A stretch of DNA of 64,000 nt from Rhizophagus irregularis (taxonomy: Eukaryota > Glomeromycota > Glomeromycetes > Glomerales > Glomeraceae): NCBI RefSeq assembly GCF_026210795.1, contig NC_089431.1, positions 4,650,001-4,714,000 of the forward strand, in the 5' to 3' direction. The translations under genes and the position numbers were made by a program. Every line of letters starts with the position of its first letter. Positions within the stretch are counted from its first letter, which is position 1. The notes under the pieces are model-generated. The model was not told where the DNA came from. It did no database searches and saw nothing but the letters and a program-made list of their open reading frames with translations. Shown here one piece after another: positions 26,853 to 64,000 of the stretch.

Positions 26853-28748
26853 GTAAGACTGCAGGGTTCACGATCGGGCTAGTTTCTTCCCAATTGCATC
26901 CAAGGTTACAGCCTGAACGGAATCTTACTTAGTTATTTTTGTAACTAATCTCTTTTTAATTTGTAGGGAACGTTCAAGAAAAAATAAGAAGAAAAGACAC
27001 TATGTATGGTAAGTATGAAGGGATGGTGCGCACTGCAGGGTTCACGATCGGGCTAGTTTCTTCCCAATTGCATCCAAGGTTACAGCCTGAACGGAGTCTT
27101 ACTTAGTTATTTTTGTAACTAATCTCTTTTTAATTCTTTAAAATTTATAGGACACGCTCAAGGAAAAATAATAAGAGAAGATACTATGTATGGTAAGTAT
27201 GAAGGGATGGTGCGCACTGCAGGGTTCACGATCGGGCTAGTTTCTTCCCAATTGCATCCAAGGTTACAGCCTGAACGGAGTCTTACTTAGTTATTTTTGT
27301 AACTAATTCCTTTTTATTTCTTTAAAATTTGTAGGGAACGCTCAAGGAAATTCGATTGGAGAAGATAGAGAAGATGCTATATATGGTAAGTATAAAAGGG
27401 ATGGTGCGCACTGCAGGGTTTACGATCAGGCTAGTTTCTTCCCAATTGCATCCAAGGTTACAGCCTGAACGGAGTCTTACTTAGTTATTTTTGTAACTAA
27501 TTCTTTTTTATTTCTTTAAAATTTGTAGGGAACGCTCAAGGAAATTTGATTGGAGAAGATAGAGAAGGTGCTATATATGGTAAGTATAAAAGGGATGGTG
27601 CGCACTGCAGGGTTCACGAACTGCAGGGTTTACGATCGGGCTAGTTTCTTCCCAATTGCATCCAAGGTTACAGCCTGAACGGAGTCTTACTTAGTTATTT
27701 TTGTAACTAATTCTTTTTTATTTCTTTAAAATTTGTAGGGAACGCTCAAGGAAATTTGATTGGAGAAGATTACTTAGTTATTTTTGTAACTAATCTTTTT
27801 TTTAATTCTTTAAAATTTGTAGGTAATGCTCAAGGAAAAATAAGAAGAAAAGACACTATGTATAGTAAGTATGAAGGGATGGTGCGCACTGCAGGGTTCA
27901 CGATCGGGCTAGTTTCTTCCCAATTGCATCCAAGGTTACAGCCTGAACGGAATCTTACTTAGTTATTTTTGTAACTAATCTCTTTTTAATTTGTAGGGAA
28001 CGTTCAAGAAAAAATAAGAAGAAAAGACACTATGTATGGTAAGTATGAAGGGATGGTGCGCACTGCAGGGTTCACGATCGGGCTAGTTTCTTCCCAATTG
28101 CATCCAAGGTTACAGCCTGAACGGAGTCTTACTTAGTTATTTTTGTAACTAATCTCTTTTTAATTCTTTAAAATTTATAGGACACGCTCAAGGAAAAATA
28201 ATAAGAGAAGATACTATGTATGGTAAGTATGAAGGGATGGTGCGCACTGCAGGGTTCACGATCGGGCTAGTTTCTTCCCAATTGCATCCAAGGTTACAGC
28301 CTGAACGGAGTCTTACTTAGTTATTTTTGTAACTAATTCCTTTTTATTTCTTTAAAATTTGTAGGGAACGCTCAAGGAAATTCGATTGGAGAAGATAGAG
28401 AAGATGCTATATATGGTAAGTATAAAAGGGATGGTGCGCACTGCAGGGTTTACGATCGGGCTAGTTTCTTCCCAATTGCATCCAAGGTTACAGCCTGAAC
28501 GGAGTCTTACTTAGTTATTTTTGTAACTAATTCTTTTTTATTTCTTTAAAATTTGTAGGGAACGCTCAAGGAAATTTGATTGGAGAAGATAGAGAAGGTG
28601 CTATATATGGTAAGTATAAAAGGGATGGTGCGCACTGCAGGGTTCACGATCGGGCTAGTTTCTTCCCAATTGCATCCAAGGTTACAGCCTGAACGGAGTC
28701 TTACTTAGTTATTTTTTGTAACTAACTTTATTTTTTTGAATTTTGTAG
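26853..28748 (+). repeat. Array of ten near-identical introns with 42-51-nt exons between them
   Basis: Ten introns of 114-159 nt share an almost invariant core (CTGCAGGGTTCACGATCGGG then CTAGTTTCTTCCCAATTGCA, CCAAGGTTACAGCCTGAACG) and an acceptor region ending TTTGTAG. Most start GTAAGTATGAAGGGATGG or GTAAGTATAAAAGGGATGG. The block of four units at 26967-27738 recurs 1,030 bp downstream at 27997-28748, showing a second, larger duplication. Intron D at 27386 and intron E at 27580 carry small differences (CAGG for CGGG; a doubled GCAGGGTT). Confidence 0.92.
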
Positions 28749-28986
28749 GGAACGTTCAAGAAGAAATGATAAGTAGAAGTAGTTCAGGCCATGAAAATTT
28801 AAATAGACTTCATAAATTTACGCCTGAAGTACAAAAACAACAAAATAATTCTAATTTTGATACCCATTATCAAAATTATTGTAGATGTTGCAATTACTCG
28901 TATTGCAACTGTAAGGCCAAAAATCATTCATATTTTTGTTCTGTATGTAAATTTTACAAATGTTATAAAGGAAAAGGAGGTATATA

Positions 28987-30272
28987 TGTTGTGCCTCAGA
29001 TCGATTCTTGCCTCAGATCGCAACTCACGCACCTCAGATTGAAATCGTCATGTGAGGTGCGTGATGTGGATCATTGATAATCTGAGGTGCCTCGGTTTTA
29101 ATCTGAGGCAAATAAAAAATTTTTTTTTAAAAAAAATATCGATTGTTTTCTACTATTTTTTACTATTTTATTAATCTGAAATAGTGTTAGTTTAACTCAT
29201 TAGTAACTACACTAAAAATTACTTTAATTATTATAAAGTTTTTAATAAGAACGGTTCTTTACGGCTAATTGGCTCTTTGAGGTAAGTTCGGAAGCTTTTA
29301 TTTTATTTTTTTTTTTGTTTTTTTCTTTTTCGGAACGGTACTAACCATTCCTACCTTTTCTTTTTTTTGTTAAACATTTTAAGTAGGTTTTTTTTGTTTT
29401 TTTCTTTTTAGGAGCCGTATTTAACCCATTTCTTTTTCTTTTTTTAATAGGAACGGTTAAAATGTTTTAAGGTAGAATTCAATTTTTATTTTATTTTTTC
29501 TTTTTTGAACGGTACTAACCGTTTTTTTTTCTTTTTTTTTTAGCATTTCGGCCTGGGCTCTCTCCCGGTAAATAGGTATGCTATAATGTTTACTATAGTG
29601 TTAGTTTCTTTCTCCTAGAACGGTACTGACCGTTCTTTTTCTTTTTTTTTTTTTAGCAGTTCAGCCTGGACTTTCTCCCGGTAAATATTTGGTGCTATGG
29701 TGTCTATGGTGTTAGTTTCCTTCTCCTAGAACGGTACTGACCGTTCTTTTTCTTTTTTTTTAGCATTTCGGTCTGGTCTCTCTCCCGGTAAATATTTGGT
29801 GCTATGGTGTCTATGGTGTTAGTTTCTTTCTCCTAGAACGGTACTGACCGTTCTTTTTTCTTTTTTTTTTAGCATTTCGGTCTGGACTTTCTCCCGGTAA
29901 ATATTTGGTGCTATGGTATCTGCGGTGTTATTTTCTTTCTCATATGTTTAAATAATCGGCGTATTTGTAAAGTAGAACGGTACTGACCGTTCTTTTGTCT
30001 TTTTTTTTAGCATTTCGATTTGGACTCTCTCCCGGTAAATAGGTGGTGTTATGGTATCTATAATGTTGGTGTTTTCTTCTAGATATTAGCCATTCTCTTT
30101 TCTTTTTTTAATAGGAATAGATTAATGGTTTTTTGAGAATAGGTAAATAAGATTTTGAGTAAGAAAACATGGATGTTAGAGAAATGAAAATTTATAATAA
30201 GAGGAACGAAAAAAAATTTAATGTAAAATCTGATATTGAATAATATAAAAATTGTGTAATAAATAAAATCAA
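28987..30272. repeat. Left terminal inverted repeat of the Ginger-like element
   Basis: About 1.28 kb, the reverse complement of 39525-40821 with few differences. The outer 120 bp contain several copies of CCTCAGAT in both orientations. Positions 29507-30000 contain tandem 107-139-bp units, each with the palindrome AGAACGGTACTGACCGTTCT (29617, 29728, 29835, 29974) and the motif CTCTCCCGGTAAAT. The inner boundary is approximate. Confidence 0.9.
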
Positions 30273-30370
30273 CTTAAAAATTGAGATTATTGTCAGGTGA
30301 TATGTGTGATGCAAATCATTGATAATCTTTACAAAGACACGACATTTTTTTATTACAGTTTTTTTTTATG

Positions 30371-30470
30371 GAAAACACGTTTTATCGCGTTAACAGATTG
30401 AAAACACATGTTTTATCTCGTTACAGTCTGAAGACACATGCTTTATATCGTTACAGCTTGAAAACACATG
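30371..30470 (+). repeat. Subterminal 29-30-bp tandem repeats
   Basis: Three and a half copies of GAAAACACATGTTTTATCTC-like units starting at 30371, 30400, 30430 and 30460, directly before the integrase start. Each holds an ACATGT palindrome. They may be transposase-binding sites or promoter elements. Confidence 0.8.
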
Positions 30471-30665
30471 TTTGTAGCTATATGTTTTGTCATGGAATAT
30501 ACGTTTATCAGCAGAGATACATTTAATGGAATTATTGAACGTTACATTGGCAACCTCCCTACGTCAAAGCAAGAAAAAGCTTTGATAAATCTTAATTTTT
30601 TAAATAAAATTAAAGAAGTATTGTTAGACCCTAAAAATAATACTATTTCTAATAAAAATACACGT

Positions 30666-31898
30666 TGAGATCCCCCAATTCCCCCTGTCATCAATTTACA
30701 AGGTTGCCACATCGAACGGGCATTCTCATGGTCGAACGAACGAATGGGCGAACAAACAAACGAACGAACGAGCAATCAAACGAACAAACACGTGATCAAA
30801 ACATAATTAACGAACAACAACATCAGCGAACAATATACAACAACATTCTTGGTTCACAAAATAAATAGCGTTAGTAATATAAAACGTTGAGCGATATAAA
30901 ATAAAATATACTTCTCTTTCCTCAAATTATATCCACTTTCGATTTCAAACTGCGATAGCTCTCGCTACGAATTATTATCTTCCAAAGGTATATATTTAAT
31001 TCATCTTAAATTTTCATTAATTAAAATTAATTAATCAAACATTAATTAAAGTTTAGGGCGAACCTATTACCTTTAATTAATATTAAACTTCATTAATAAT
31101 TAAAAAATAAAACTTATATTTTATTGAGTTCTGTGGATGCGAACTGTGGAATTACTTTGAATTCCGTTCTCTATATATACAATTTTTATGCTACTTTCTA
31201 TTCTATCTATATACTATCTTTTATGTTCTTTACATATTATCTTTGAACTATCTTTCTAATATACTATCTATATTTTAAATACGCTATCTTTTAATATGCT
31301 ATCTTATATATTATTTTATATGTTATCTCTTCTATTATTCAAATATTACATCGTAAAGAAATAATTTATAACCCATCTTTTATGGCTGTGCTATCTTTTC
31401 TTTAAAATAATCTTTCAAATATTATATCGTAAAGATATAATTCATCTTTTGTGGCTGTGTTATCTTTTTATATATGTTCTTTTTAATATGTTGTCTTTTA
31501 TATTCCATCTTTTTACTATCTTTTCATATTATCTTTTATATTATCTTGTGTTCTTTAATCTTTCCGACATTATTTTATATGTTCTTTTAATCCACTTTAT
31601 GTGTTTTGCTTATAATCTATCTTTTGTGGCTTATAATTATTCTTTCTTATCGTTCTTGTTGTTAAAGATCGCCAAGCCGCAATTGATCGACTCTATTTAT
31701 CCTATTGGTTCTTTGTCAATCATTCAATAAATATTACATCATGCAGATCATTACTCTTCTTAAATGTTTATCCTTTTCGGCTAATTATTTATCCATCCAC
31801 ACCAATCCACGATTAATTTGTTCGTTCTTAATACTTGATAATTACATTTGGCGGTGGTGTTTTATCATCTTCTCATGCTTGATATTCGGCCGTTTACA
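30666..31898 (-). repeat. 3' LTR of the retrotransposon
   Basis: 1,233 bp, matching 36475-37708 apart from a 1-nt difference in a T-run (about 31510). Contains a GAACGAACGAA microsatellite at about 30733-30785. Confidence 0.93.
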
Positions 31899-31914
31899 TT
31901 ATCCCCCTCTTCGC
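31899..31914 (-). promoter_or_regulatory. Polypurine tract
   Basis: On the minus strand GCGAAGAGGGGGATAA ends exactly at the 3' LTR start (TGTAAAC). This is the expected plus-strand DNA priming site. Confidence 0.8.
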
Positions 31915-31974
31915 TATTTGTGACCTCACAAATAACTTTAAAAGAATCGAACTCGGGTCTCATTCATAATAATT

Positions 31975-33201
31975 TTAATCGAATCGAACTCGGGTCTTAT
32001 CGAATACCTCTTTTCCTTTAATTACTATTTTTGGTGTAAATCCCCTTCGATCATAAAATTTCTTTAACCATTCTCCATTTTGTGGTGTTTTTAGTATTCT
32101 TCCATCCAATTCTTTAAGTTTGTATGCTCCATTCCCAAATTCTTCGTGAATTAAATATGGTCCTTTCCATTTGCTCTGTAATTTTCCAGACCATTGTTTC
32201 TCTCTCCATGCTTCATATAATAATACTTTTTCTCCTATTTCAAATTTAGGTTTTCTAATTCCTCTTTTGTCATGTTGTTGTTTTTGTTTCTCTTGAGCTT
32301 CTTTCACATTTTCTTTTATTTTCCTTCTTATTACCGGTAGCTCTTCAATTAATATTTTTATTCTATCAGTTAATGTTATTTTATTTTCGTCTTTATCTAA
32401 TGGTAGTTTTGCTCTTCTTCCGTATGTTGCATAAAAAGGTTTAATTCTTGTTGATGATTGCTTCTTTGTCCTATATGCAAATAATACAGATGGTATATGT
32501 TTATCCCAATTTTCTTCTCCTAATTTGGCCAATCCTTCGCATAAAGTTTTATTGAATCTTTCGACCAAACCGTTTGTTTGTGGCCTATATGGTGTACTTA
32601 ATCTATGATTTATTCCACATCTTTCTACTAATTCCTCCATCATTTTATTGTTAAAGTGAGTCCCTCTATCGCTAATTATTTTCTTTGGACATCCATGTCT
32701 ACAAATTATGTCCCTCCAAATAAATTCTACTACTTCTTTTGCTGTAGCTTCTTTTAGTGGTGCGGCCTCGGGCCATTTTGTAAAATAATCCATTGCTACT
32801 ACAATGTACTTATTTCCCTTTTCTGTCTCTTTTAACGGTCCAACTATATCTATCCCAATCATCTCAAATGGTTCATTTATCTTTATTGGCGTTAATTCGT
32901 TCTTTCCTCTTGGTTTTCCTCTCATTTGACAATTCCAACACGTCCTTACATATTCTTCTACATCTTCTTTCATATTTTTCCACCAATAATTTTCTTTTAT
33001 TCTATCTAATGTCGCTTCTATCCCAAAATGTCCTGATAATTCATTATCATGCATCATGTACATCAATCCCTCGTATTCATAATCCCTGATTACTCTAAAT
33101 CTGTTTTGTCCTTTTATTCTATATAAAATTCCTTCTTTCAATTCATATTTATTCTCTTTTTCGATATTGTCAATTATTCTCTTATAATTATTTTCCTCCA
33201 T
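31975..33201 (-). CDS. Retrotransposon integrase ORF (Ty3/Gypsy)
   Basis: 408 aa. An N-terminal HHCC zinc-binding motif (MMHDNELSGHFG.. CWNCQ) is followed by the rve core with D (GIDIVGPL), D (IISDRGTHF) and E (GLVERFNK) and then a C-terminal domain (FEIGEKVLLYEAWR.., WKGPYLI). It would integrate the cDNA. It lies 60 nt after the stop of the upstream ORF, in the same frame but separated by two TAA codons. The stretch between reads as coding-like sequence in the +1 frame (TKNIEHITKITNSEVESIK), so the original pol frame seems to have been broken by small indels. Whether it is translated separately from ATG at 33201 is unknown. Confidence 0.9.
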   Translation of the reverse strand: MEENNYKRIIDNIEKENKYELKEGILYRIKGQNRFRVIRDYEYEGLMYMMHDNELSGHFGIEATLDRIKENYWWKNMKEDVEEYVRTCWNCQMRGKPRGKNELTPIKINEPFEMIGIDIVGPLKETEKGNKYIVVAMDYFTKWPEAAPLKEATAKEVVEFIWRDIICRHGCPKKIISDRGTHFNNKMMEELVERCGINHRLSTPYRPQTNGLVERFNKTLCEGLAKLGEENWDKHIPSVLFAYRTKKQSSTRIKPFYATYGRRAKLPLDKDENKITLTDRIKILIEELPVIRRKIKENVKEAQEKQKQQHDKRGIRKPKFEIGEKVLLYEAWREKQWSGKLQSKWKGPYLIHEEFGNGAYKLKELDGRILKTPQNGEWLKKFYDRRGFTPKIVIKGKEVFDKTRVRFD

Positions 33202-33261
33202 AATATTTCTTTAATTGATTCTACTTCTGAGTTTGTTATTTTCGTTATGTGTTCTATATTT

Positions 33262-34971
33262 TTAGTTCTGTGCTCTTCTCCATTTTTCCACCTCTTTAAA
33301 TACTTTTCTCCAACTACTATTGTCATTTTTAACTTTTACTCGACTGTATCTTTTGGTATCTTTATACACACTTTGATTTTCTTCAAACATTTTAACCATG
33401 TCCAAATATTCATCCTTCTTTAATGTTGGATATGATGATTTTTCCGTTTTCTTTGTTTCTCTTCCAATGTAATTTTTCCAACATACGTCACCATCTTTCT
33501 CTAAAAATATCACTATTGATTTATCTATCGTTTCTTTCAGTCTGAATATTTCTTTTTCCATCTCATGATTTCCATGTGGAGTAATTAATCCTCTGTCAAA
33601 ACTTTTCGTCTTTTGATAATAATATTCACAATATGGTGATTTGTCTAAAATTATTATATCTGTATCTTCATCATATTCTAACATTCTTCTATTTATTTGT
33701 TCCACTACTTCTTTTCTAAATTTCCATTCTGTATCCATCTTTGATTCGTGAAATTCATCTTTATCTTTTCTTCTTCTTTTATAAGTATTGAATCTTACTT
33801 TTAATCCTTGTTTTTCCCATTCTTTAATTAAATTTTGTACTATACTTGTTTTTCCCAATCCATCTACCCCGTCAATTATTACTATTTCTGGTTGATCCTC
33901 TACTATCTTTAATAATCTACTTAATGCGTCGGCGTTCGTATTTTCTTTTCCCGACCTATGTATTACTTCAAAATTATATTGCTGTAATTCCATTACCCAT
34001 CTTATTTCGCATCTTTCGCACCAAGTTGTACTCTCATTTATTAATTGTCCATATGTTATATTCGCTCTACAATTTTTCACGTCTCCCTCAATGTCATAAG
34101 GTCGTATTTCATCAGTTAATCTTGGTCCATACTCTCTGGGTTTTGTTGGTCCTCCTGCTTCTCTCCATTTTCTTAGTCCTCCTGTTGGGTCATAATAATC
34201 TTGTCTTTTATTACTCCATTTCATTTTTCGTGGTCCTATCGGTTTATCCCAATTCTGTTCAGTTCGTTCAGGTATATAATTTGGTGTCGTTGTACCACTT
34301 GGTATTTCTCTATCATCCATTCTACTTCCTGCTCCTCTTAATTCTTCTTGTAAATTTCCTTCTTCATTATTATTTTTATATCCCACTGTTGGATTCGTCC
34401 TTCTTGTTTGTCTTCTTGTTTTTACTGCGTTATCTTTTGCATACAATTCACTATGATAATTTAATTCTCCATCTTCATAATCATCGTAATATCCTTGTGT
34501 ATAATATACTCCATCGTATTGTGGTTCCTCATATCCATTTTCATTATAATCACACTTTTCTTGGTCATCATATTCACCTGTCATATTCACTCTTGCATTC
34601 CTTTTTGCTTTTTGATTTTTACTCGAGCCAATTTCGGGTCCTTTTATATCCTCTTCCACTTCATCTTCAAGATTCCATATTGTTAAATATTTCCTCATAA
34701 TTTCATATGTTGTTATTATCTTTGCAGTTACTCCAAATTTTCTTGTTCTTTCAATTTCCGTTATTTCTACATCATATCCCATACTAGTCAATCTTAACAA
34801 TTCTTCTTCAGTTGTTATCGTTCCAATATCTCCAAAAATCTTCTGTAATCTTTTTACCCGATTATCAATTTCATCGATATCCTCTTCTTCACAATCTTTG
34901 CATACGGTTCCTCCTAATCTAAACATATCATTCATCCATCTTATCATTTCTATTTTCAATCTTCTAAGCAT
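33262..34971 (-). CDS. Retrotransposon Gag-like / RNase H remnant fused to a nucleoside/thymidylate-kinase-like domain
   Basis: 569 aa. Residues 1-310 are Gag-like to protease-leader, acidic and low complexity, with no zinc knuckle seen. At about 315-350 it jumps from ANITYGQLINES to the tail of an RNase H domain (RWVMELQQYNFEVIHRSGKE and ADALSR), so protease, RT and most of RNase H are deleted. At about 364-375 there is a P-loop, IIDGVDGLGKTS, followed by features of the deoxynucleoside/thymidylate kinase fold: DKSPYCEYYY (like the DRS/ERS or DRY motif), a hydrophobic strand KSIVIFLEKDGDVCWKNYIG and an R/K-rich lid-like ETKKTEKS. By family knowledge it would phosphorylate a nucleoside or dTMP. 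Substrate and activity are not deducible here. The domain runs to the ORF end. Confidence 0.82.
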   Translation of the reverse strand: MLRRLKIEMIRWMNDMFRLGGTVCKDCEEEDIDEIDNRVKRLQKIFGDIGTITTEEELLRLTSMGYDVEITEIERTRKFGVTAKIITTYEIMRKYLTIWNLEDEVEEDIKGPEIGSSKNQKAKRNARVNMTGEYDDQEKCDYNENGYEEPQYDGVYYTQGYYDDYEDGELNYHSELYAKDNAVKTRRQTRRTNPTVGYKNNNEEGNLQEELRGAGSRMDDREIPSGTTTPNYIPERTEQNWDKPIGPRKMKWSNKRQDYYDPTGGLRKWREAGGPTKPREYGPRLTDEIRPYDIEGDVKNCRANITYGQLINESTTWCERCEIRWVMELQQYNFEVIHRSGKENTNADALSRLLKIVEDQPEIVIIDGVDGLGKTSIVQNLIKEWEKQGLKVRFNTYKRRRKDKDEFHESKMDTEWKFRKEVVEQINRRMLEYDEDTDIIILDKSPYCEYYYQKTKSFDRGLITPHGNHEMEKEIFRLKETIDKSIVIFLEKDGDVCWKNYIGRETKKTEKSSYPTLKKDEYLDMVKMFEENQSVYKDTKRYSRVKVKNDNSSWRKVFKEVEKWRRAQN

Positions 34972-36455
34972 TCTTTTATCTTTAAATAGATCGCTTCTTC
35001 CAATCTTTCGATTCCATCTTTCGGTTCTATATATTTACTATGCCATATTTTACTATTAATTTTTACTGCGCCTTAAAATTTCAAAAATTTTTCTAAGTCC
35101 ACAATCTCCTCAGGCTGCGGAGGTTTTTACTGTGCCATCAAATTTATCTTTTATCACCGATCTCCATAATTTCACATGTCACATCTTTTCGTCACTGTGA
35201 TTCATAATTTCACTTATCACATCTTTTTGTCACATCTTTTTGTCACCAAGATCCATAATTTCACATATCACAAACTCCAAAATTTTCATAACTTTTAAAG
35301 TTTGCGAACTTCCAATCTTTCTTATCGTCCACATAAATCCTTCTTACTATATATTCTATATTATATAAATTAATCTATAACACACAAAATGTCGTTCTTT
35401 TCAGATAAATGTCTTTCTTTTCAAATAAATGTTCTTTTTCAAATAAATATTCCTTTTCAAATAAATGTTCTTCTTTTAAATAAATATCCTTCTTTTCGGA
35501 TTTTACTCTATTATTAAATACTGCACGTAATGTTCATTATACGGCTCGTTAATGTGTAAATATCCTTCTATTTTTTCTTCTTTTAACGGAACATTGTAAT
35601 GAAAGCGTGAACTAGGACACTACACCAGGAACCCTCATCTGAAATGTAGCCTAGGACCTGTAACAATACAACATATCCGTCTTTTCCTCCTTCGTTGGCT
35701 GACTTGTCTCTTAACGGGTGAATCTAACCTTCCAAAATCCAGTTTCAAAAGTCATCAGCTATCCATAAAACTCATCTAAACCAACTTTCTTAAATTGGTG
35801 GACCTATACTGAGCTTATCTCTATCTTTTACCCGCTGGAGATACCCCACATTGAAATAAAAGCACGACAGTTTTCAGGTTTGTCCTATTTTATCCATTCA
35901 ATGTTTCTTGATAGTAGGTGTCTTTACAATCTTCATTCCCCGTCCCCAAAGCAATTCGTACGTTATTGAGCTGGGTATCCAGATTTGACGTAACCCATAC
36001 GTTATAATCTTTAATATCGAAGAATAAAAATTTTCCAATTTTGAGCATTTATCCAAAATCCAAACTCAGAGGTAACCCATACCACACAGATGAACCCCGG
36101 ACAATACATTGGTGTTCTCCCATTATTAATCTTTATTCCAAAATTTATCTTTCACTTCCCCATCTCCTTATGAAATTTCTCAGGTACTTTATTCCCGAAA
36201 GAAACATTCTTGTGCTTTCTATCGATTAAGTGATTACTTGCACAACTTCAAACTCCAATCTTTCGCCTTTTCAAGTTTTTAACTCGTTAAATCCTCGTTG
36301 ATTTATTGGTTCCTTTTGAACTCGTCAAAACCTGAAATCTAAAAATAAATTCTAAAATAAAATATTGATTAATAATACCTATCAGTGACTTACTAACGAA
36401 ATTAAATTTTCATATTCATTATAATAATAATCATGTGATGATGATCATTTCCTTT
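34972..36455 (-). other. Untranslated leader of the retrotransposon
   Basis: Between the 5' LTR and the first ORF. Repeats of ATAAATGTTCTT-like and CATCTTTTTGTCAC-like motifs occur at 35160-35500. No ORF of note; probably leader/packaging sequence. Confidence 0.5.
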
Positions 36456-36472
36456 CTTGCGAGCATGCACCA
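36456..36472 (-). promoter_or_regulatory. Candidate tRNA primer-binding site
   Basis: Two bases inside the 5' LTR the minus strand reads TGGTGCATGCTCGCAAG, starting with the TGG that pairs with a tRNA CCA end. I could not assign the tRNA. Confidence 0.55.
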
Positions 36473-36474
36473 TA

Positions 36475-37708
36475 TGAGATCCCCCAATTCCCCCTGTCAT
36501 CAATTTACAAGGTTGCCACATCGAACGGGCATTCTCATGGTCGAACGAACGAATGGGCGAACAAACAAACGAACGAACGAGCAATCAAACGAACAAACAC
36601 GTGATCAAAACATAATTAACGAACAACAACATCAGCGAACAATATACAACAACATTCTTGGTTCACAAAATAAATAGCGTTAGTAATATAAAACGTTGAG
36701 CGATATAAAATAAAATATACTTCTCTTTCCTCAAATTATATCCACTTTCGATTTCAAACTGCGATAGCTCTCGCTACGAATTATTATCTTCCAAAGGTAT
36801 ATATTTAATTCATCTTAAATTTTCATTAATTAAAATTAATTAATCAAACATTAATTAAAGTTTAGGGCGAACCTATTACCTTTAATTAATATTAAACTTC
36901 ATTAATAATTAAAAAATAAAACTTATATTTTATTGAGTTCTGTGGATGCGAACTGTGGAATTACTTTGAATTCCGTTCTCTATATATACAATTTTTATGC
37001 TACTTTCTATTCTATCTATATACTATCTTTTATGTTCTTTACATATTATCTTTGAACTATCTTTCTAATATACTATCTATATTTTAAATACGCTATCTTT
37101 TAATATGCTATCTTATATATTATTTTATATGTTATCTCTTCTATTATTCAAATATTACATCGTAAAGAAATAATTTATAACCCATCTTTTATGGCTGTGC
37201 TATCTTTTCTTTAAAATAATCTTTCAAATATTATATCGTAAAGATATAATTCATCTTTTGTGGCTGTGTTATCTTTTTATATATGTTCTTTTTAATATGT
37301 TGTCTTTTATATTCCATCTTTTTTACTATCTTTTCATATTATCTTTTATATTATCTTGTGTTCTTTAATCTTTCCGACATTATTTTATATGTTCTTTTAA
37401 TCCACTTTATGTGTTTTGCTTATAATCTATCTTTTGTGGCTTATAATTATTCTTTCTTATCGTTCTTGTTGTTAAAGATCGCCAAGCCGCAATTGATCGA
37501 CTCTATTTATCCTATTGGTTCTTTGTCAATCATTCAATAAATATTACATCATGCAGATCATTACTCTTCTTAAATGTTTATCCTTTTCGGCTAATTATTT
37601 ATCCATCCACACCAATCCACGATTAATTTGTTCGTTCTTAATACTTGATAATTACATTTGGCGGTGGTGTTTTATCATCTTCTCATGCTTGATATTCGGC
37701 CGTTTACA
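36475..37708 (-). repeat. 5' LTR of the retrotransposon
   Basis: 1,234 bp. On the minus strand it begins TGTAAACGGCCG and ends GGGATCTCA. The near identity to the other LTR implies a very recent insertion. Confidence 0.93.
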
Positions 37709-39409
37709 ACGTAGTTGGATTAAGAAAAAGTTTAAGCTTGAGGAAATAACACCTGGTGACTATAGGGTAATTGTTGCAGCAAACAACAACCCAGTGTTGG
37801 CTGTAGAAAATATGTACGAAGTTTTATGTCGAACTCATGCAGAAATTACACAGCATGGTGGGCAAAGACAGACATGGAAGTCTATTATAGAAAGGTGGGG
37901 TTGGATTAAACAAGATATTGTAGAACAATTTGTTAATAATTGTACAATATGTGCAGTACGAAAACCATCATTTCACCCTTTAGCAGCAAAGCCTATCATT
38001 GCAAGGAATTTTCTATCTCGTGTGCAAGTAAATATTTAATTTATTTTATATTCTTTTTTTTATTATTATTATATTTAATTTATTTTTTATTTTTTTTTAG
38101 ATGGATCTTATTGATTTATCATTTGACGCAGATGGCGAATATAAATATATTTGCCATGTAAGAGATCACTTTACAAGATTCTCTTGGGCCAGAGCTCTTA
38201 CTTCAAAAAGAGCTATTGAAGTAGCAGCATATCTTTTTGAACTTTTCCATTTTTTAGGCTCTCCTCCAACTATTTTACAGTCTGACAATGGGAAAGAGTT
38301 TTGTGCGGGAGTAATAAAGGAATTAATTGAAATGTGGCCTACAGTAATGATTATAAATGGTCGTCCACGACATCCGCAGTCTCAGGGCCTAGTTGAACGT
38401 GCTAATGGAATTTTACAACAAAAGCTTGGTAAGTGGCGAGAGAATACTGGCCGAACTGATTGGTCTTTTGGTCTTAAATTTGTTATTTCAGCTATGAACA
38501 ATTCATGGTGTCGGTCCCATAAAAAAACACCATATGAACTCGTATATAGTGATAAACCACGTGGAAATTGTACTTTAATTGATGAATTATTTGCAAAAAA
38601 TATCTATAATGAAGAGGATATACCTGATACTATACAAATATATGATAGTATTGAAGATTTGGATAGTGATATAATAGATGATTTGCAAGGTAAGGTTTTT
38701 AATACTAAAAAAATTATTAATTTCAATAATATTTATTAAATTTAATAAAATGTTTTTTTTAATCTAATTGCCAAATTTTATTATTTATCATACTAATACA
38801 ATTAGAATCAAATATTCCAGTTCAACAATTAGATATTGAAAGAGCAGTGGTCCAAGATCAAGATAATGAAAATAATAGACATATAGTACTTATTGATCCA
38901 GTCCTTTTAGATATTACAAATAATACACAGCACGAAGTATTAAGAAATATGGCTCGTCAAGACCTTCAAGATTATACAAATAAGATGGCCAATCAAATGA
39001 GCAAGGGAAGAAAAAGAATTAAAGAATATCAGATTGGTGATCTGGTAAGGGTTGCTGTTCCTAAAATTGATAGATTTAGTGTTGATCGACCCACTTTGCC
39101 ATGTAAAATTATGGAAAAAACTGAAAATAATAAATATAGTTTGGGATCAAAATTTGGAATAATTGGAGTGTATTATTCTGCTAGTGAATTAGAACCACTT
39201 GGAACAGAAACTTTTCCTGAATTAGAAGTCATTCCCTTAAACAAAATATCAATTAGAGAGGCTGCACGTCTTCAGAGTGCGGGTTTAGTATCAGGGGGTA
39301 TATGTAATTGTAAAGGTGAATGCAATAGTAATAAATGTCGCTGTAAGAAGGCAGGTGGAGACTGTAGCAGTAGATGCCATAGTGGACGTTCATGTCAAAA
39401 TAAATGATG

Positions 39410-39524
39410 CGGCATTTGTTATATGTAAAAATATATTAATTAGTCAAAAAAATGCATTATTACTGATGTCTTATATGAAAAAATAATAAAGAATTTGAAT
39501 TTAAGTAATTTCATGTATGCTTAA
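39410..39524. terminator. 3' end of the integrase gene
   Basis: AATAAA-like signals (AAAATAATAAAGAA at about 39479) follow the stop codon by about 70 nt. Confidence 0.35.
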
Positions 39525-40821
39525 ATCATTGATTTTATTTGTTAATAGATTATACACAATTTTATATTATTCAATATCAGATTTTACATTAAATTTTTTT
39601 TCGTTCCTCTTATTATAAATTTTCATTTCTCTAACATCCATGTTTTCTTACTCAAAATCTTATTTACCTATTCTCAAAAAACCATTAATCTATTCCTATT
39701 AAAAAAAGAAAAGAGAATGGCTAATATCTAGAAGAAAACACCAACATTATAGATACCATAACACCACCTATTTACCGGGAGAGAGTCCAAATCGAAATGC
39801 TAAAAAAAAAGACAAAAGAACGGTCAGTACCGTTCTACTTTACAAATACGCCGATTATTTAAACATATGAGAAAGAAAATAACACCGCAGATACCATAGC
39901 ACCAAATATTTACCGGGAGAAAGTCCAGACCGAAATGCTAAAAAAAAAAGAAAAAAGAACGGTCAGTACCGTTCTAGGAGAAAGAAACTAACACCATAGA
40001 CACCATAGCACCAAATATTTACCGGGAGAGAGACCAGACCGAAATGCTAAAAAAAAAGAAAAAAGAACGGTCAGTACCGTTCTAGGAGAAGGAAACTAAC
40101 ACCATAGACACCATAGCACCAAATATTTACCGGGAGAAAGTCCAGGCTGAACTGCTAAAAAAAAAAAGAAAAAAGAACGGTCAGTACCGTTCTAGGAGAA
40201 AGAAACTAACACTATAGTAAACATTATAGCATACCTATTTACCGGGAGAGAGCCCAGGCCGAAATGCTAAAAAAAAAAGAAAAAAAAACGGTTAGTACCG
40301 TTCAAAAAAGAAAAAATAAAATAAAAATTGAATTCTACCTTAAAACATTTTAACCGTTCCTATTAAAAAAAGAAAAAGAAATGGGTTAAATACGGCTCCT
40401 AAAAAGAAAAAAACAAAAAAAACCTACTTAAAATGTTTAACAAAAAAAGAAAAGGTAGGAATGGTTAGTACCGTTCCGAAAAAGAAAAAAACAAAAAAAA
40501 AATAAAATAAAAGCTTCCGAACTTACCTCAAAGAGCCAATTAGCCGTAAAGAACCGTTCTTATTAAAAACTTTATAATAATTAAAGTAATTTTTAGTGTA
40601 GTTACTAATGAGTTAAACTAACACTATTTCAGATTAATAAAATAGTAAAAAATAGTAGAAAACGATCGATATTTTTTTTAAAAAAAAATTTTTTATTTGC
40701 CTCAGATTAAAACCGAGGCACCTCAGATTATCAATGATCCACATCACGCACCTCACATGACGATTTCAATCTGAGGTGCGTGAGTTGCGATCTGAGGCAA
40801 GAATCGATCTGAGGCACAACA
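39525..40821. repeat. Right terminal inverted repeat of the Ginger-like element
   Basis: Reverse complement of the left arm, including the same series of AGAACGGTCAGTACCGTTCT palindromes and the terminal CTGAGGCACAACA. Differences seen by eye are mainly homopolymer lengths, and a few extra bases near the inner end. Confidence 0.9.
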
Positions 40822-40922
40822 TATATAGGACTAAAAGTTGCATGTATTGGAGAAAAGATAACAATGGTAATTTTAGAATATTTGATGTTCGTTTTCATCA
40901 AATTAAGTTACCCTGGGAATAA

Positions 40923-49646: not shown

Positions 49647-52600
49647 TTAGGAATCGATTTCTTTTTCTATACCTTCGTCTTGTTCATATTGTGCAAGAAT
49701 TTTTTTAGCATCGTCATTTCCACCTTCAGCTGATTCTTTAAGTAACATAAAGGCCTTTTCTTTATCAATATCAACTATAATCCCATGAAGAAAATAATAC
49801 CCTAGTTTATATTTCCCGTTTACACATCCTTTATCAGCCGCTTGTTTATAATAATCAAATGCTCTAATGAGATTTTTATTAACACCTTTACCTATTTCAT
49901 AAATATTTCCTAGTTCATATAATACAAAATCATTATCATTTTCTGCGGATTTTTTATACAAATAATTAACTAGATTTAAATCACTTATTATATTTTCTTC
50001 ATTATCATAAATTGATTTAAGAAATTCTATATTTTCTTTTTCAGTTATCTTATCATATAATTCAAATCCTTTTTCTTTATCAATTTCAGTCCCAATTCCT
50101 TTTATATAACAATATCCAAGACTAAGTTTCGCGTTTAAATATCCCTTTTCAACTGATTTTTTATATAATTCAAATGCGTCAGTTTCATTTTTATTTACAC
50201 TTATTCCTAATTCATAACATATACCTAAATTATCATATGCAACTTCATCTCCATTTTCTGTTGCTTTTTGTAACCAATAAACTGCCTTTTCCAAATCTTT
50301 TTCAGCTTTATTACCCCAGAAATATAAGATTCCAAGATTATTTTGTGCATTAATACTTCCCTTATCAGCTGCAATTTTGTATAACTCAAAAGCTTTTGCT
50401 TTATTAATTTCAGTTCCGATTCCTTTATCATAACAATAACCAAGTTGACATTGAGCATTTAAATATCCTTGATCAGCTGATTTATTATAATATTCAAAGG
50501 CTTTGATTTTATCTTTTACAGTACCTTTACCATTTTCATATAAAATTCCAAGATTACTTTGTGCAATACATGATCCTTTATCTGCAGCAATTTTATATAA
50601 TTCAAACGCCTTAAATTTGTCAACTTCAGTACCAATTCCTTTTTCATAACAATAACCAAGTTGACATTGAGCATTTAAAAATCCTTGATCAGCTGATTTT
50701 TTATATAATGTAAAAGCTTTAACTTCATCTTTTTCAATTACTTCACCATTTACATATAAATTTGCAAGATTATATTGGCCAACACTAGAATCTTTTTCAG
50801 CAGCAATAGTGTACAATTCAAATGCTTTTGCAAGATTAACTTCAGTTCCAATTCCTAAAGAATAACAATATCCAAGTTCAAGTTGTGCATTTAAATAATC
50901 TTTATCAGCAGATTTTTTATAATATTCAAATGCTTTAATTTCATCTTTATCTACACCCACTCCTGATTTATAACAATTTCCTAAACTATATTCTGCTACT
51001 TCATATCCACTTTCTGCTGCTTTATTATACCAGTAAATAGTTTGTTCTAAATCTTTTTCTATTCCTTTACCATTTTTATATAAAATTCCAAGATTATATT
51101 GTGCAATAGTATGATTTTTTTCAGCCGCAATTTTATAAATTTCAAATGCTTTTGTTTTATTAGTTTCAGTACCAATTCCACTATCATAACAATATCCAAG
51201 TTCAAATTGAGCATTTAAATAACCTTGATCAGCAGATTTTTTATAATATTCAAATGCTTTAATTTCATCCTTTTCTACACCTTTTCCATATTTATAACAA
51301 CCAGCTAAATTATATACTGCCACTTCATTTCCATCCTGTGCTGCTTTTTTATACCATTTAAAAGCTTCCTCCAAATTCTTTTCAACCCCTTCACCTTTTT
51401 CATATAAACAACCAATACTGTTTTGTGCATTTATATTTCCATTTTCAGCAGCAATTTTATATAATTCTAATGCTTTTATTTGATTAATCTCAGTACCAAT
51501 TCCATTATTATAACAATAACCAAGCTCAAATTGAGCATCTGAAAAATCTTTATCAGCAGATTTTTTATAATATTCAAATGCTTTAACTTCATCTTTTTCA
51601 ACTTCTAATCCAAATTTATAATGATTTCCTAAATAATATTGAGACATTTCACAACCATTTTCTGCTGCTTTATTAAACCAATAAAATGCTTGTTTTAAAT
51701 CTTTTTCTATACCATCACCATATTCATATAAAAGCGCTAAACTATTATATGCAATATTATATTCTTTTTCAGCAGTAATTTTAATTAATTCATATGCTTT
51801 TATTTTATTAATTTCAGTTCCAATTCCATTAATATAACAATAACCAAGTTCAAATTGAGCTTCTAAATATTCTTGATCAGCAGATTTTTTATAATATTCG
51901 AATGCTTTACCTTCATCTTTTTCAACTATAAACCCTAATTGATAATAATTACCTAAATTATATTGTGCTATTTTACATCCATTCTCTGCTGCTTTATTAT
52001 ACCAATAAATAGCTTTATTATATCTTTCATAATTTTTTATAATATCACCATTTTGATATAAAATACCAAGATTACATTGAGCATTAACATGATCTTTTTC
52101 AGCAGCAATTTCATAAAATTCAAATGCTTTTAATTTATTAATTTCAGTTCCAATTCCAAAATCGTAACAATAAGCAAGTTCAAATTGAGCATTTAAAAAT
52201 TCTTGATTAGCAGATTTTTTATAATATTCAAATGCTCTTTTTTCATCTTTTTTTACAAATTCACCACTTTTATAATAATTACCTAAATTATATTGTGCAG
52301 ATTTATTTCCATTTTCAGCTGCTTTACTATACCAATAAATAACTTTATCAAAATCTTTTTCTATTCCAATTTCATTTAAATAACAATTACCCAATATATA
52401 TTGTGCAAGAGGATATTCATTTTCAGAAGATTTTAAATACCATTTAAAAGCATTTTTATAATCTTGATTTATTCCTATTCCATTTTGATAACAAATACCT
52501 AAATTATATTGAGCATGTAAATCACCTTCATTAGCAGCTTTTAAATACCATTCAAAAGCTTTTTTTTCATCTTTAATTATTCCAATACCATTTTGATAAC

Positions 52601-53351
52601 AATAACCTAAATTATTTTGTGCATTAGAATTTCCACCTTTTGCAGATTTTAAATAAAATTCAAATGCTTTAAATTCATCTTTCTTTTTTCCTACACCATG
52701 TTGATAACAATAACCTAAATTATTTAATTCTATTAATTCATTCTTTTCTAATAATAATTGATTTTCATTAAAATCATCTTTATTATCTTGAGATTCAAAA
52801 TATTTTTCCATATTAATTAATTCATCTTTACATATATTAATTTTTAATCCATTAAAATTTTCAAATTGATTATATGACATAACATGATGAACATTTTCTA
52901 AAATTTTAAATTCTTTTGAAATCATAATTTTTTTATCTAAAATAATATCTTTATAATAATAAAATGATAATAAATATTTTGAAATAATAATATTAAGTAA
53001 TTGATAAGTAGATTTTAATTTTTTATTTTCATCATTTTCATAATTTTTAATTGATTTTAAATAATATATTAAAATATCATCATTATCATTATCATCATCA
53101 TCATAACCTATACCATTTTCATAAAAAAATCCTATTAAACTTGAAAACCAATTTTCATTCTCTTCATGTTCTTTCATTATTTTTAAAAAAATCCTTGTAT
53201 CTTTTTCATTATAATTAAAATAATCTTGGATCCATTCCGTTAAAGTATTTTTAAAATTTTTATAATTTTCTATGTTTATGATTTGACGATAAAATTCTTT
53301 TAAAAATTCTTTTAAAAAATTTTCATCATCATTTGAAATATTTGACGTCAT
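49647..53351 (-). CDS. Large Sel1-repeat (SLR) protein
   Basis: Single uninterrupted 1,234-aa ORF. Residues 1-200 are an acidic, poly-Asn/Asp region without a recognised domain (a DDDDNDNDD run near 77-90). From about 205 to the end there are some 28 Sel1-like TPR repeats of about 36 aa, consensus AF-YYKKSADQGYLNAQFELG then YCYDNGIGTE. No signal peptide or membrane segment is evident, so a cytosolic scaffold is likely. The repeats form an alpha-solenoid used for protein binding. Higher-order order is visible: sets of three repeats recur. The lack of introns contrasts with the kinase-Sel1 genes nearby. Confidence 0.93.
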   Translation of the reverse strand: MTSNISNDDENFLKEFLKEFYRQIINIENYKNFKNTLTEWIQDYFNYNEKDTRIFLKIMKEHEENENWFSSLIGFFYENGIGYDDDDNDNDDILIYYLKSIKNYENDENKKLKSTYQLLNIIISKYLLSFYYYKDIILDKKIMISKEFKILENVHHVMSYNQFENFNGLKINICKDELINMEKYFESQDNKDDFNENQLLLEKNELIELNNLGYCYQHGVGKKKDEFKAFEFYLKSAKGGNSNAQNNLGYCYQNGIGIIKDEKKAFEWYLKAANEGDLHAQYNLGICYQNGIGINQDYKNAFKWYLKSSENEYPLAQYILGNCYLNEIGIEKDFDKVIYWYSKAAENGNKSAQYNLGNYYKSGEFVKKDEKRAFEYYKKSANQEFLNAQFELAYCYDFGIGTEINKLKAFEFYEIAAEKDHVNAQCNLGILYQNGDIIKNYERYNKAIYWYNKAAENGCKIAQYNLGNYYQLGFIVEKDEGKAFEYYKKSADQEYLEAQFELGYCYINGIGTEINKIKAYELIKITAEKEYNIAYNSLALLYEYGDGIEKDLKQAFYWFNKAAENGCEMSQYYLGNHYKFGLEVEKDEVKAFEYYKKSADKDFSDAQFELGYCYNNGIGTEINQIKALELYKIAAENGNINAQNSIGCLYEKGEGVEKNLEEAFKWYKKAAQDGNEVAVYNLAGCYKYGKGVEKDEIKAFEYYKKSADQGYLNAQFELGYCYDSGIGTETNKTKAFEIYKIAAEKNHTIAQYNLGILYKNGKGIEKDLEQTIYWYNKAAESGYEVAEYSLGNCYKSGVGVDKDEIKAFEYYKKSADKDYLNAQLELGYCYSLGIGTEVNLAKAFELYTIAAEKDSSVGQYNLANLYVNGEVIEKDEVKAFTLYKKSADQGFLNAQCQLGYCYEKGIGTEVDKFKAFELYKIAADKGSCIAQSNLGILYENGKGTVKDKIKAFEYYNKSADQGYLNAQCQLGYCYDKGIGTEINKAKAFELYKIAADKGSINAQNNLGILYFWGNKAEKDLEKAVYWLQKATENGDEVAYDNLGICYELGISVNKNETDAFELYKKSVEKGYLNAKLSLGYCYIKGIGTEIDKEKGFELYDKITEKENIEFLKSIYDNEENIISDLNLVNYLYKKSAENDNDFVLYELGNIYEIGKGVNKNLIRAFDYYKQAADKGCVNGKYKLGYYFLHGIIVDIDKEKAFMLLKESAEGGNDDAKKILAQYEQDEGIEKEIDS

Positions 53352-61375: not shown

Positions 61376-64000
61376 ATGGCTCAAAGTAATGATAAAGGTA
61401 AAAGCATATAATATGAATATAGATATCTAATACAAATTGAAATTGCTCTAAAATTTTTTTCAAACCAAATTTGTAATATAATGAAACTAGTTTCAAAAAT
61501 TGAGAAAGATAAAGGTAAGAAAATTATTAACAGCTTGTAAATTATAAAAATATAATTTAAATTTTTTAAACTATTTCTAAAAATTATTTTACTATATTAG
61601 CTCGTAAGTAATAGGTTATCCTATAATCGGAATGATAATTAAATTACTTCTTTTATTTTATATAACCAAATAATTTATTTTAATATTACTAATATTATTA
61701 TAGTTGGTAGTTATTAGCTATTTTTTTTATTGTATTTTACATGATATTTTAAATAACTAAATTTTCTATTAATATAATTGTTTAATAATTATTAATATTA
61801 TAGAAAGTAAGTATTTAATTTTATATTAATTTAAAAGTATTAAATATAATTTAAATTAATAATATTATTTATTTAAATAATTAGATTGTAAGTTACTGTA
61901 TATACTTAATAATTATAATATTTTTTCTAATTGATTATAATTACTTTACTTTATAATTATTATTAATTAATAATGCTACAGGGTGTAAGTTATTTATTTA
62001 ATCTATTATATTTATACATATAATTTAACTAAATTCTTTATTTAAAAAATTATTTTATATTTCTTTTAGTTGGTAAGTTATAAGTTATTTATTTAATTCT
62101 ATTATATTTATATGATGTTTACGTATAATTTAAACTAACTAAATTCTTTATCTAAAAAATTATTTATTTAATAATATAGCGAGTATGTTATTTTTATATT
62201 TATATAATATTTACGTAAATTTAAACTAACAAATTCTTAACTTAAAAAAATATTCAAATATTTTAGATCGTAAGTAATTTATTATATTATATAATATTTA
62301 CATATAATTTAAACTAACTAAATTCTTTATTTAAATTATTTTGTAATTTCTTTTAGTTAGTAAGTTATAAGTTATTTATTTAATTCTATTATATTTATAT
62401 AATGTATACATATATTTTAAACTAACCAAATTCTTTATTTAAAAAATTATTTATTTAATAATATAGCTAGTATGTCATTTATTTAATTCTATTATATTTA
62501 TATAATATTTACATATAATTTAAACTAACTAAATTCTTTATTTAAAAATTATTCAAATATTTTAGATCGTAAGTGATTTATTATCATATTTATAATATTT
62601 ACATAACATATAATTTAAACTAACTAAATTCTATATCAAATATTTTAGATTGTAGGTAATTTATTATATTTATATAATATTACATATAATTTAAACTAAC
62701 TAAATTCTATATATAAAATTAAATATTTTAGATTGTAAGTAATTTATTATATTTATATAATAGCTTCACATAATTTAAACTACTAATTAAATTCTTTATT
62801 TAAAAAATTATTCAAATATATTAGCTTGTAAGTAATTTATTAGTATATTTATATAATATTTACATATAATTTAAACTGATTAAATTTTTTATTTAAAATA
62901 TTATTCAAATGTTTTATATTGTAAGTAATTTATTATTATATTTATATAATATTTAAATATAATTTAGACTAACTAAATTCTTTATTTAAAAAATTATTTT
63001 GTAATTTCTTTAGTTGGTAAGATATAAGTTATTTATTTAATTCTATTATATCTATATAATATTTACATATAATTTAAACTAACTAAATTCTTTATTTAAA
63101 AAATTATTTATTTAATAATATAGGCAGTATGTTATTTATTTAATTCTATTATATTTGTATTATGTTTACATATAATTTAAACTAACTAAATTCTTTATTT
63201 AAAAAATTATTTATTTAATAATATAGGCAGTATGTCGTTTTTAATTCTATTATATTTATATAATATTTACATATAATATAAACTAACTAAATTCTTTTAT
63301 TTAAAAAATTATTTATTTAATAATATAGGGAGTATGTTATTTATTTAATTCTATTAATATATTTATATAATTATTATAATATTTACATATAATTTAAAAA
63401 TTCATTACAATATTTTAGATTGTAAGTAATTTATTATATTTATATAATATTTAAATATAATTTAAACTAACTAAATTCTTTATTTAAAAAATTATTCAAA
63501 TATTTTAGACTGTAAGTGATTTATTATATTTATATAATGTTTACATATAATTTAAACTAACTAATTCTTTATTTAAAAATTATTCAAATATTTTAGATTG
63601 TAAGTAATTTATTACATTTATATAAAATTTACATATAATTTAAACTAATTAAATTCCTTATTTAAAAAATTATTCAAATATTTTAGATTGTAAGTAATTT
63701 ATTATTTATATAATATTTACATATAATTTAAACTAACTAAATTCCTTATTTAAAAAATTATTTTGTAATTAGTTGGTAAGATATAAGTTATTTATTTAAT
63801 TCTATTATATTTATATAATGTTTACATATAATTTAAACTAACTAAATTCTTTATTTAAAAATTATTCAAATATTTTAGATTGTAAGTAATTTATTATATT
63901 TATATAATATTTACATATAATTTAAACTAACTAAATTCTTTATTTAAAAAATTATTTTGTAATTTCCTTTAGTTGGTAAGTCATGAGTTATTTATTTAAA
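61376..64000 (+). CDS. Candidate gene start running into an array of 3-nt microexons (3' partial)
   Basis: Exon 1 61376-61397 (MAQSNDK plus G), intron 61398-61490, exon 2 61491-61514 (SKIEKDK, phase 1 at both ends). From there on, 25 sites of the form AG-NNN-GT follow at 75-190-nt spacing; with each NNN as a 3-nt exon the frame stays open to the window end. The first few read CTC (61601), TTG (61704), AAA (61804), ATT (61885), GGT (61982). Donors are GTAAGT, GTATGT or GTAAGA with few exceptions. The product is unknown and the gene is incomplete. The intron 61398-61490 is 93 nt and carries only one in-frame stop, so retention is a second possibility. This is a reading from splice consensus only; an alternative is a plain AT-rich minisatellite beyond exon 2. 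Confidence 0.4.
61990..64000 (+). repeat. AT-rich tandem array with intron-like units
   Basis: Units of about 85-110 bp share TTATATTTATATAATATTTA then CATATAATTTAAACTAACTA and AATTCTTTATTTAAAAAATT. Three variants differ around the junction: TATTTTAGATTGTAAGTAAT, TTCTTTTAGTTGGTAAGTTA and AATAATATAGGCAGTATGTT. All have AG, three bases, then GT. ACTAAC in the shared part fits a fungal branch site about 40 nt before the AG. More diverged units extend the pattern back to about 61600. The array is not closed at the window end. Confidence 0.9.

Follow-up and report, generated by a model that had tools for sequence, protein, structure and literature searches.

Positions 61376-64000 of the window (the whole stretch of 64,000 nt that was analysed) most probably form the 5' half of a kinase-like gene in which a long array of 3-nt exons is spliced consecutively in phase 1; we put the probability of this reading at about 0.9. 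The architecture, the closure of the reading frame and the avoidance of stop codons are properties of the DNA itself. A gene of tandem 3-nt exons had been proposed in a sequence-only reading of the same stretch, and this proposal is now supported by a 1-nt exon that closes the frame, by stop avoidance confined to consecutive joins and by the presence of such arrays in 27 loci.

Exons, reading frame and predicted protein

All exons lie on the forward strand. Exon 1 (61376-61397, ATG to AAAG) encodes MAQSNDK plus one base and is followed by the donor GTAAAA; exon 2 (61491-61514, 24 nt) encodes VSKIEKDK, precedes the donor GTAAGA and, like exon 1, leaves phase 1. The array opens with five units common to most paralogues: CTC (61601-61603), TTG (61704-61706, with the weak donor GTAGTT), AAA (61804-61806), ATT (61885-61887) and GGT (61982-61984). 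It continues with TTG (62070-62072), CGA (62180-62182), ATC (62267-62269), TTA (62357-62359), CTA (62467-62469), ATC (62566-62568), ATT (62649-62651, donor GTAGGT), ATT (62732-62734), CTT (62825-62827), TTG (63014-63016), GCA (63124-63126), GCA (63227-63229), GGA (63329-63331), ATT (63419-63421), ACT (63509-63511), ATT (63597-63599), ATT (63687-63689), TTG (63773-63775), ATT (63879-63881) and TTG (63973-63975), the last inside the window. All 25 triplets of the form AG-NNN-GT that had been claimed are present (24 by a stricter pattern, 25 by a looser one), and the listed positions were real except for 62080, which should read 62180, as the sequence-only reading itself states. A further unit, ATT at 62918-62920, was absent from that list; it has the donor GTAAGT, its acceptor has decayed from TAG to TAT, and it is probably skipped in splicing. 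The pattern YAG-NNN-GTRWGH matches 23 times from 61500 on within 61376-64000, against a mean of 0.06 and a maximum of 1 in 50 dinucleotide shuffles of this segment, and it matches twice elsewhere on the forward strand of the window and twice on the reverse strand.

Beyond position 64000 the array runs on, up to window-equivalent 64464 in locus L009, with 3-nt exons at window-equivalent 64076, 64246 and 64462, so that the 25 triplets in the window become 28 joined for the whole gene. There follow a 1-nt exon, A, at 64686, in the context TTTAG-A-GTAAGT, and the first kinase exon from 64783, where the intron ends in AAAG and the exon reads ATTTGGTACTAGTGGAAGTGAA. Two short sequences with inverted ends, noticed by eye at window-equivalent 64271-64379 and 64481-64621 (about 3272-3380 and 3482-3622 of L009), lie within array introns; they differ in composition and resemble small transposons that may be tolerated there.

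The 22-nt exon 1 and then exon 2 leave the frame in phase 1, as had been claimed, the triplets keep this phase without a single stop in the 28 joined, and the 1-nt exon then shifts phase 1 to phase 2, in which the kinase exon begins. The predicted product has 929 residues and is stop-free. Read in phase 2, the window locus has 2 stops in 19 adjacent triplet pairs. The earlier description of exons reduced to one codon each is right as to their size and wrong as to their content: each triplet completes one codon with two bases and opens the following codon with its third, and because the exons straddle codons in this way they are codon-sized, yet not one codon each. Joining exon 2 straight to the kinase exon, which would read GATAAAG and then ATTTGGTACTAG, leads to stops, and with the whole array taken as one intron the kinase falls out of frame; the predicted closing string of the array is TTG-A-ATTTGGTACTAGTGG. 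Dropping every triplet and retaining the 1-nt exon still preserves the frame.

In the first 455 of the 929 residues, Pfam gives only PF07714 (E = 9e-35; 120.6 bits against a gathering cut-off of 23.1) and PF00069 (E = 7e-34), with neither NACHT nor ankyrin in this part, and no hydrophobic stretch was found by eye in the predicted N-terminus, MAQSNDKVSKIEKDK. The aspartate of HRD and the DFG motif are the mark of an active kinase. Both are altered in 17 of 18 loci, the window gene included, where N or S stands at the HRD aspartate and D/N-Y-L/I at DFG; the catalytic loop was not located in one of the 18 loci printed. The subfamily adjoining long arrays (L009-L028), in which the open frames of the kinase exons span 325-924 residues, mostly has HYNFH for HRDLH, and from N or S for the aspartate and DYL-like motifs for DFG it looks like a group of pseudokinases. 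The deposited protein P0053, from another subfamily, retains the catalytic aspartate. The dN/dS of the kinase part is high (median 0.76 over 136 pairs from 17 loci), which we counted against the main reading.

The downstream kinase is identical over the matched part to the deposited R. irregularis protein OCT59_021159, the model of which begins only within the kinase exon and lacks every array residue. P0053 agrees with the join of exons 1 and 2 in L033 and omits the array; in P0114 the frame runs on through intron 1, and the array is likewise left out. The N-termini deposited for P0072 and P0094 are not derivable from the triplets of their nearest loci, and when aligned to triplet readings they do not stand clearly above shuffles (in the best case, P0094 in phase 1, 33 of 500 were as high). 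The gene of P0094 is L035, as its first kinase exon is identical, and the deposited N-terminus cannot be spelled from L035 by a chain of GT/GC-AG introns of 45-2500 nt, which yields the last five residues and not the last eight. A retrocopy pattern of spliced exon 2 plus five triplets, with up to 2 mismatches, gave 69 matches, none of them exact, against 15 for the reversed control; many of these are one repeated sequence (AAATCTCTTAAAAATTGG), and nothing is therefore drawn from them.

Other features of the window

Both forward-strand matches to the strict pattern outside the array lie near a tract of 194-nt repeats, one before it (26465) and one inside it (27866). The tract itself (26858-28760) holds about ten tandem copies of the 194-nt unit, with two blocks of 291-300 nt repeated at 100% identity. 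A large element at 28981-40827 has inverted end repeats, the arms of which are 99-100% complementary (28981-29329/40479-40827, 29357-29653/40157-40453 and 29747-30250/39560-40063), and contains in its interior a direct duplication, the copies of which lie 5.8 kb apart (30666/36475 and 31510/37320, 100%); by its sequence it looks like a young mobile element. A long array of 108-nt repeats (36 codons) occupies 50322-52725, and we take these, as a guess, to be possibly Sel1-type repeats of another gene.

Stop codons are avoided between neighbouring triplets

If the triplets are joined in phase 1, one that ends in T cannot precede one that begins with AA, AG or GA, despite the approximately 90 nt of intron that separate them. 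Consecutive splicing followed by translation predicts such avoidance in consecutive joins only, and a long intron does not predict it. With strict calling, the consecutive phase-1 joins contain 1 stop in 708 pairs versus 35.3 when triplets are permuted within loci (2000 runs, never below 21), and with weak-donor units added (873 units) there is 1 stop in 810 joins versus 38.3 expected (500 runs, minimum 26). Once units are skipped the avoidance is gone: across one unit (i to i+2) 34 of 756 joins are stops versus 36.1 expected; across two (i to i+3) 45 of 706 versus 33.6, an excess, as all 500 shuffles gave 45 or fewer; across three 34 of 657 versus 31.6; across four 32 of 614 versus 29.3; and across five 25 of 572 versus 27.6. 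It is equally absent from joins in phase 2 (91 stops in 708 pairs, 78 expected). Taking neighbours in mirror order produces 50 stops where the given order has 1; AAA-ATT accounts for 15 of the 50, and without its first-unit copies the comparison is 36 to 1. None of 822 triplets is itself a stop codon.

Paralogues share descent, so the stop counts are not independent events, and the shuffles ignore both this kinship and pairs that depend on duplication; counting distinct neighbour pairs only, which offsets the problem in part, leaves 1 stop in 277 versus 23.9 (1000 shuffles, minimum 14). Two loci fetched after the test had been designed show 0 stops in 75 joins versus 2.5, a modest result taken alone since 171 of 5000 shuffles also gave 0. 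Double-length gaps between units number 61, and four of them would give a stop if joined directly; all four contain a unit with a weaker donor, the inclusion of which removes the stop. These required units have the donors GCAAGT in L017 and GTAAAT in L020 (one) and L022 (two).

Constant introns and variable triplets

The array introns have a median length of 92 nt and contain CTRAY in 657 of 810 cases, where the branch A lies about 38 nt from the 3' end of the intron. When units are located by the intron core alone, 689 of 724 keep YAG-NNN-G[TC], and several of the remaining 35 retain an AAG acceptor or a GTTAGT donor. Donors among the 689 include GTAAGT (514), GTATGT (90), GTAAAT (49) and GCAAGT (3). 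The match to consensus is 94% at intron positions and 42% at triplet positions (635 units from the first 20 loci), and nearest units (559 pairs) differ at 3.6% of sites in the intron body and at 41% in the triplet, with the reservations that AG and GT are fixed by the rule for calling units, hence invariant in this count, and that the mixing of unit types explains part of the contrast. Between identical 22-nt flanks within one locus the triplet still differs in 176 of 357 successive pairs.

Most loci open with CTC TTG AAA ATT GGT, and the introns of these units are unlike those of later ones; after the fifth unit the introns are near-uniform and the triplets variable. Compared with their own introns across 17 paralogues, the first five triplets scored 0.961 versus 0.937, which is no significant difference, as 2634 of 20000 random draws reached this level; three of the 20 loci were left out of this comparison, L018 and L027 having no GGT at that place and L022 no start in the stretch. 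The array peptides vary among paralogues, some being rich in Q and others in R, N, W or Y.

A family of array genes across the genome

The R. irregularis DAOM197198 assembly was scanned (146.7 Mb in 32 contigs; PMC10234402). A DNA search with the array returned at least 150 matches to related arrays, and 27 array loci were read: 20 at first, 5 with diverged units and 2 fetched later. L031, which was also fetched, holds an ordinary kinase exon and not an array. The first 20 loci have 20-58 strict sites in the largest cluster of each, and 25 stretches have 9-78 units when weak donors are included. Across 25 array stretches, a YAG acceptor lies exactly 3 nt upstream of 815 among 880 strong donors, a spacing found in 0 of 31 on the reverse strand and in 0-3 of 38-66 in 20 shuffles. 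Genome-wide, two 3-nt sites 58-88 nt apart give 355 matches, and the reversed pattern gives 0.

Exon 1, or exons 1 and 2 together, leaves phase 1 in each of the 18 loci with a recognised exon 1 among 21 tested (both exons were found in 15 loci and only exon 1 in 3), although the lengths vary among 19, 22, 31, 43, 46 and 142 nt. No exon 1 was found by pattern in L011, where AAG stands at 351 in place of the expected ATG, or in L019 and L022, where the stretch begins inside the gene or array. At the other end, the array is closed by the 1-nt exon in 24 of 25 loci (23 plus L024; the L022 stretch shows no kinase exon). When 0-6 nt are permitted between the TTAG and the GTAAGT that precede the kinase exon, all 37 genome matches have exactly 1 nt there, with no match in the control, and the base is A in 35, G in one and T in one. 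Protein searches gave from at least 115 to at least 151 matches to related kinase exons, ordinary kinases included, and in one of these searches most of the matches begin at the same FG[KT]SG boundary. The array genes probably form a family of more than 100.

Several loci depart from the common form. In L037 (2588-2666) and L025 (282-312) a single longer exon, which also leaves phase 1, opens the gene, and intron 1 has apparently been lost or become part of exon 1. L034 has at 548-595 a contiguous exon (CTCTCAAAGATG / CTCTCAAAGATGG) where L033 has the triplets CTC, TCA and ATG, possibly an unsplit or fused form of separate 3-nt exons, which we regard as a lead. Another lead is the resemblance, over three residues only, of ALENW, spelled by triplets, to FENW of the L031 kinase exon. 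L023 contains the one phase-1 stop that is the sole exception in the join test, and in L024 (3122-4038) the 1-nt exon is kept at 3504 and inserted sequence stands where the kinase exon should begin; together with the AAG of L011, these cases mean that some copies may be damaged.

Alternative readings and proposed mechanism

The triplets could be exons and yet be used mainly through alternative splicing, with combinations of skipped units diversifying the proteins, as is stated of the truffle nank genes. Any skip of 3-nt units keeps the frame, donor strength varies among the 689 units, and the truffle precedent is reported to be alternatively spliced. However, joins over one to five skipped units show no stop avoidance, and since only consecutive joins do, skipped products are not under visible selection, which leaves this reading unlikely. 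Far less probable still is a satellite lying in one long intron, or dead DNA, with the AG-NNN-GT spacing inherited from one ancestral intron pair. The array in the window does consist plainly of tandem repeats and the deposited gene model does omit it, but a single intron does not keep the kinase in frame, the splice dinucleotides are intact in nearly all units found by the core, and stop avoidance in consecutive joins has no explanation known to us other than joining and translation.

Juxtaposition of AG and GT is typical of recursive splice sites, and the frame would survive loss of all triplets if the 1-nt exon stayed; both points would suit triplets that serve as steps of recursive splicing and are all absent from mature RNA. 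Such steps should be independent of their neighbours and need no fixed 3-nt spacing, whereas 1 stop in 810 joins was observed where 38 were expected, and we give this reading hardly any credence. Nor do we find it credible that the triplets are read in phase 0, the last small exon being 5 nt (AGTAA) and not 1 nt. The lack of stop codons among the 822 triplets would fit this, phase 2 could be attained through a 5-nt exon too, and the last five residues of the P0094 N-terminus can be spelled so; against it, phase 1 is what the first exons leave in 18 of 18 recognised loci, the 1-nt reading uses the donor GTAAGT where the 5-nt reading requires weaker donors, and the neighbour-dependent stop avoidance matches phase 1.

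For the consecutively spliced array in phase 1, which is the reading we prefer, what we infer from the DNA is that splicing takes place, how arrays grow and what the array peptide does. Counting against this reading are the deposited model that lacks the array, the N-termini of P0072 and P0094, the possibly damaged copies (L011, L023 and L024), the first five triplets with no significant excess of conservation over their introns, the high dN/dS and the excess of stops in joins i to i+3. The mRNA would join exons 1 and 2, then the 3-nt exons in sequence, the 1-nt exon and the kinase exons, each triplet contributing one residue and spanning two codons. Splicing would proceed by intron definition, every intron (~90 nt) being short and complete. 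The array would expand and contract by tandem duplication and unequal exchange of intron-plus-3-nt units, and because each unit adds exactly 3 nt the frame would never shift on gain or loss. Selection may favour diversity of this peptide as a fast-diversifying N-terminal segment of a kinase or pseudokinase. That it acts in recognition or partner specificity is a tentative guess by analogy with the truffle NLR genes. In a wider form, to which we give an even chance, well over 100 kinase-like genes, with arrays of up to about 60 strict triplets (78 with weak donors in one locus) and a 1-nt exon, would make up a codon-by-codon diversity system that arose independently of that in truffles, perhaps serving self/non-self or partner recognition. 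The intron would in this form be the conserved repeat and the triplet the variable element, an arrangement that would let recombination and mutation lengthen, shorten and rewrite the peptide residue by residue without risk to the frame.

If the main reading is true, the spliceosomes of this fungus faithfully excise some 30 or more introns in succession although the exons between them measure only 3 nt or 1 nt, which puts intron definition, and the notion of a minimum exon size, to an extreme test. In the deposited annotation the N-terminal portion would then be absent from this protein and probably from a large gene family of a model mycorrhizal fungus, and the genes would offer a natural setting in which to study how recognition proteins may be diversified in fungi.

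Comparison with known systems

No literature on micro-exons in Rhizophagus was found among the matches listed, in a search outside which most subscription journals and bioRxiv lay. The micro-exon genes (MEGs) of Schistosoma share with the R. irregularis array genes a coding region of many very short exons and variable proteins. MEG exons are mostly 6-36 nt and their products are secreted, in contrast to exons of 3 nt and a protein with a kinase domain here.

The sequence-only reading knew of no described array like this one; arrays of 3-bp mini-exons, dozens per gene, have been reported in the NACHT-ANK (nank) genes of Tuber melanosporum (Iotti et al. 2012, Fungal Biology 116:261, as cited in PMC4986451, PMC9815663 and PMC10197012), so that the kind of array was already known. 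According to the citing papers the truffle genes belong to an ascomycete, encode an NLR-type protein with a C-terminal recognition domain and undergo alternative splicing. Both systems, as far as the citing papers describe nank, are fungal multigene families with a variable protein segment that is spelled by dozens of 3-bp exons; the present one differs in belonging to another phylum (Glomeromycotina), in encoding a kinase-like protein, in the N-terminal position of the segment and in the extra 1-nt exon, and selection is visible here on consecutive joins only.

Single-nucleotide exons are known from Arabidopsis APC11 (PMC4674806) and Fusarium CYP621A (PMC12940212), and as in those cases the 1-nt exon here lies between two ordinary introns and is essential for the frame. 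Whereas those are single genes or one orthologue set, here a 1-nt exon precedes the kinase in at least 37 places and closes an array of 3-nt exons in the loci read. A functional 3-bp microexon is described in Drosophila homothorax (PMC7392893) as one alternatively spliced exon with no array, unlike the 3-nt arrays of the R. irregularis genes. As far as we found, codon-sized exon arrays had previously been reported for one truffle gene family only, and what appears to be new here, judged from the genome, is the phylum, the kinase-like genes, the N-terminal position, the 1-nt exon, a family of probably more than 100 genes and triplets that are far more variable than the introns between them.
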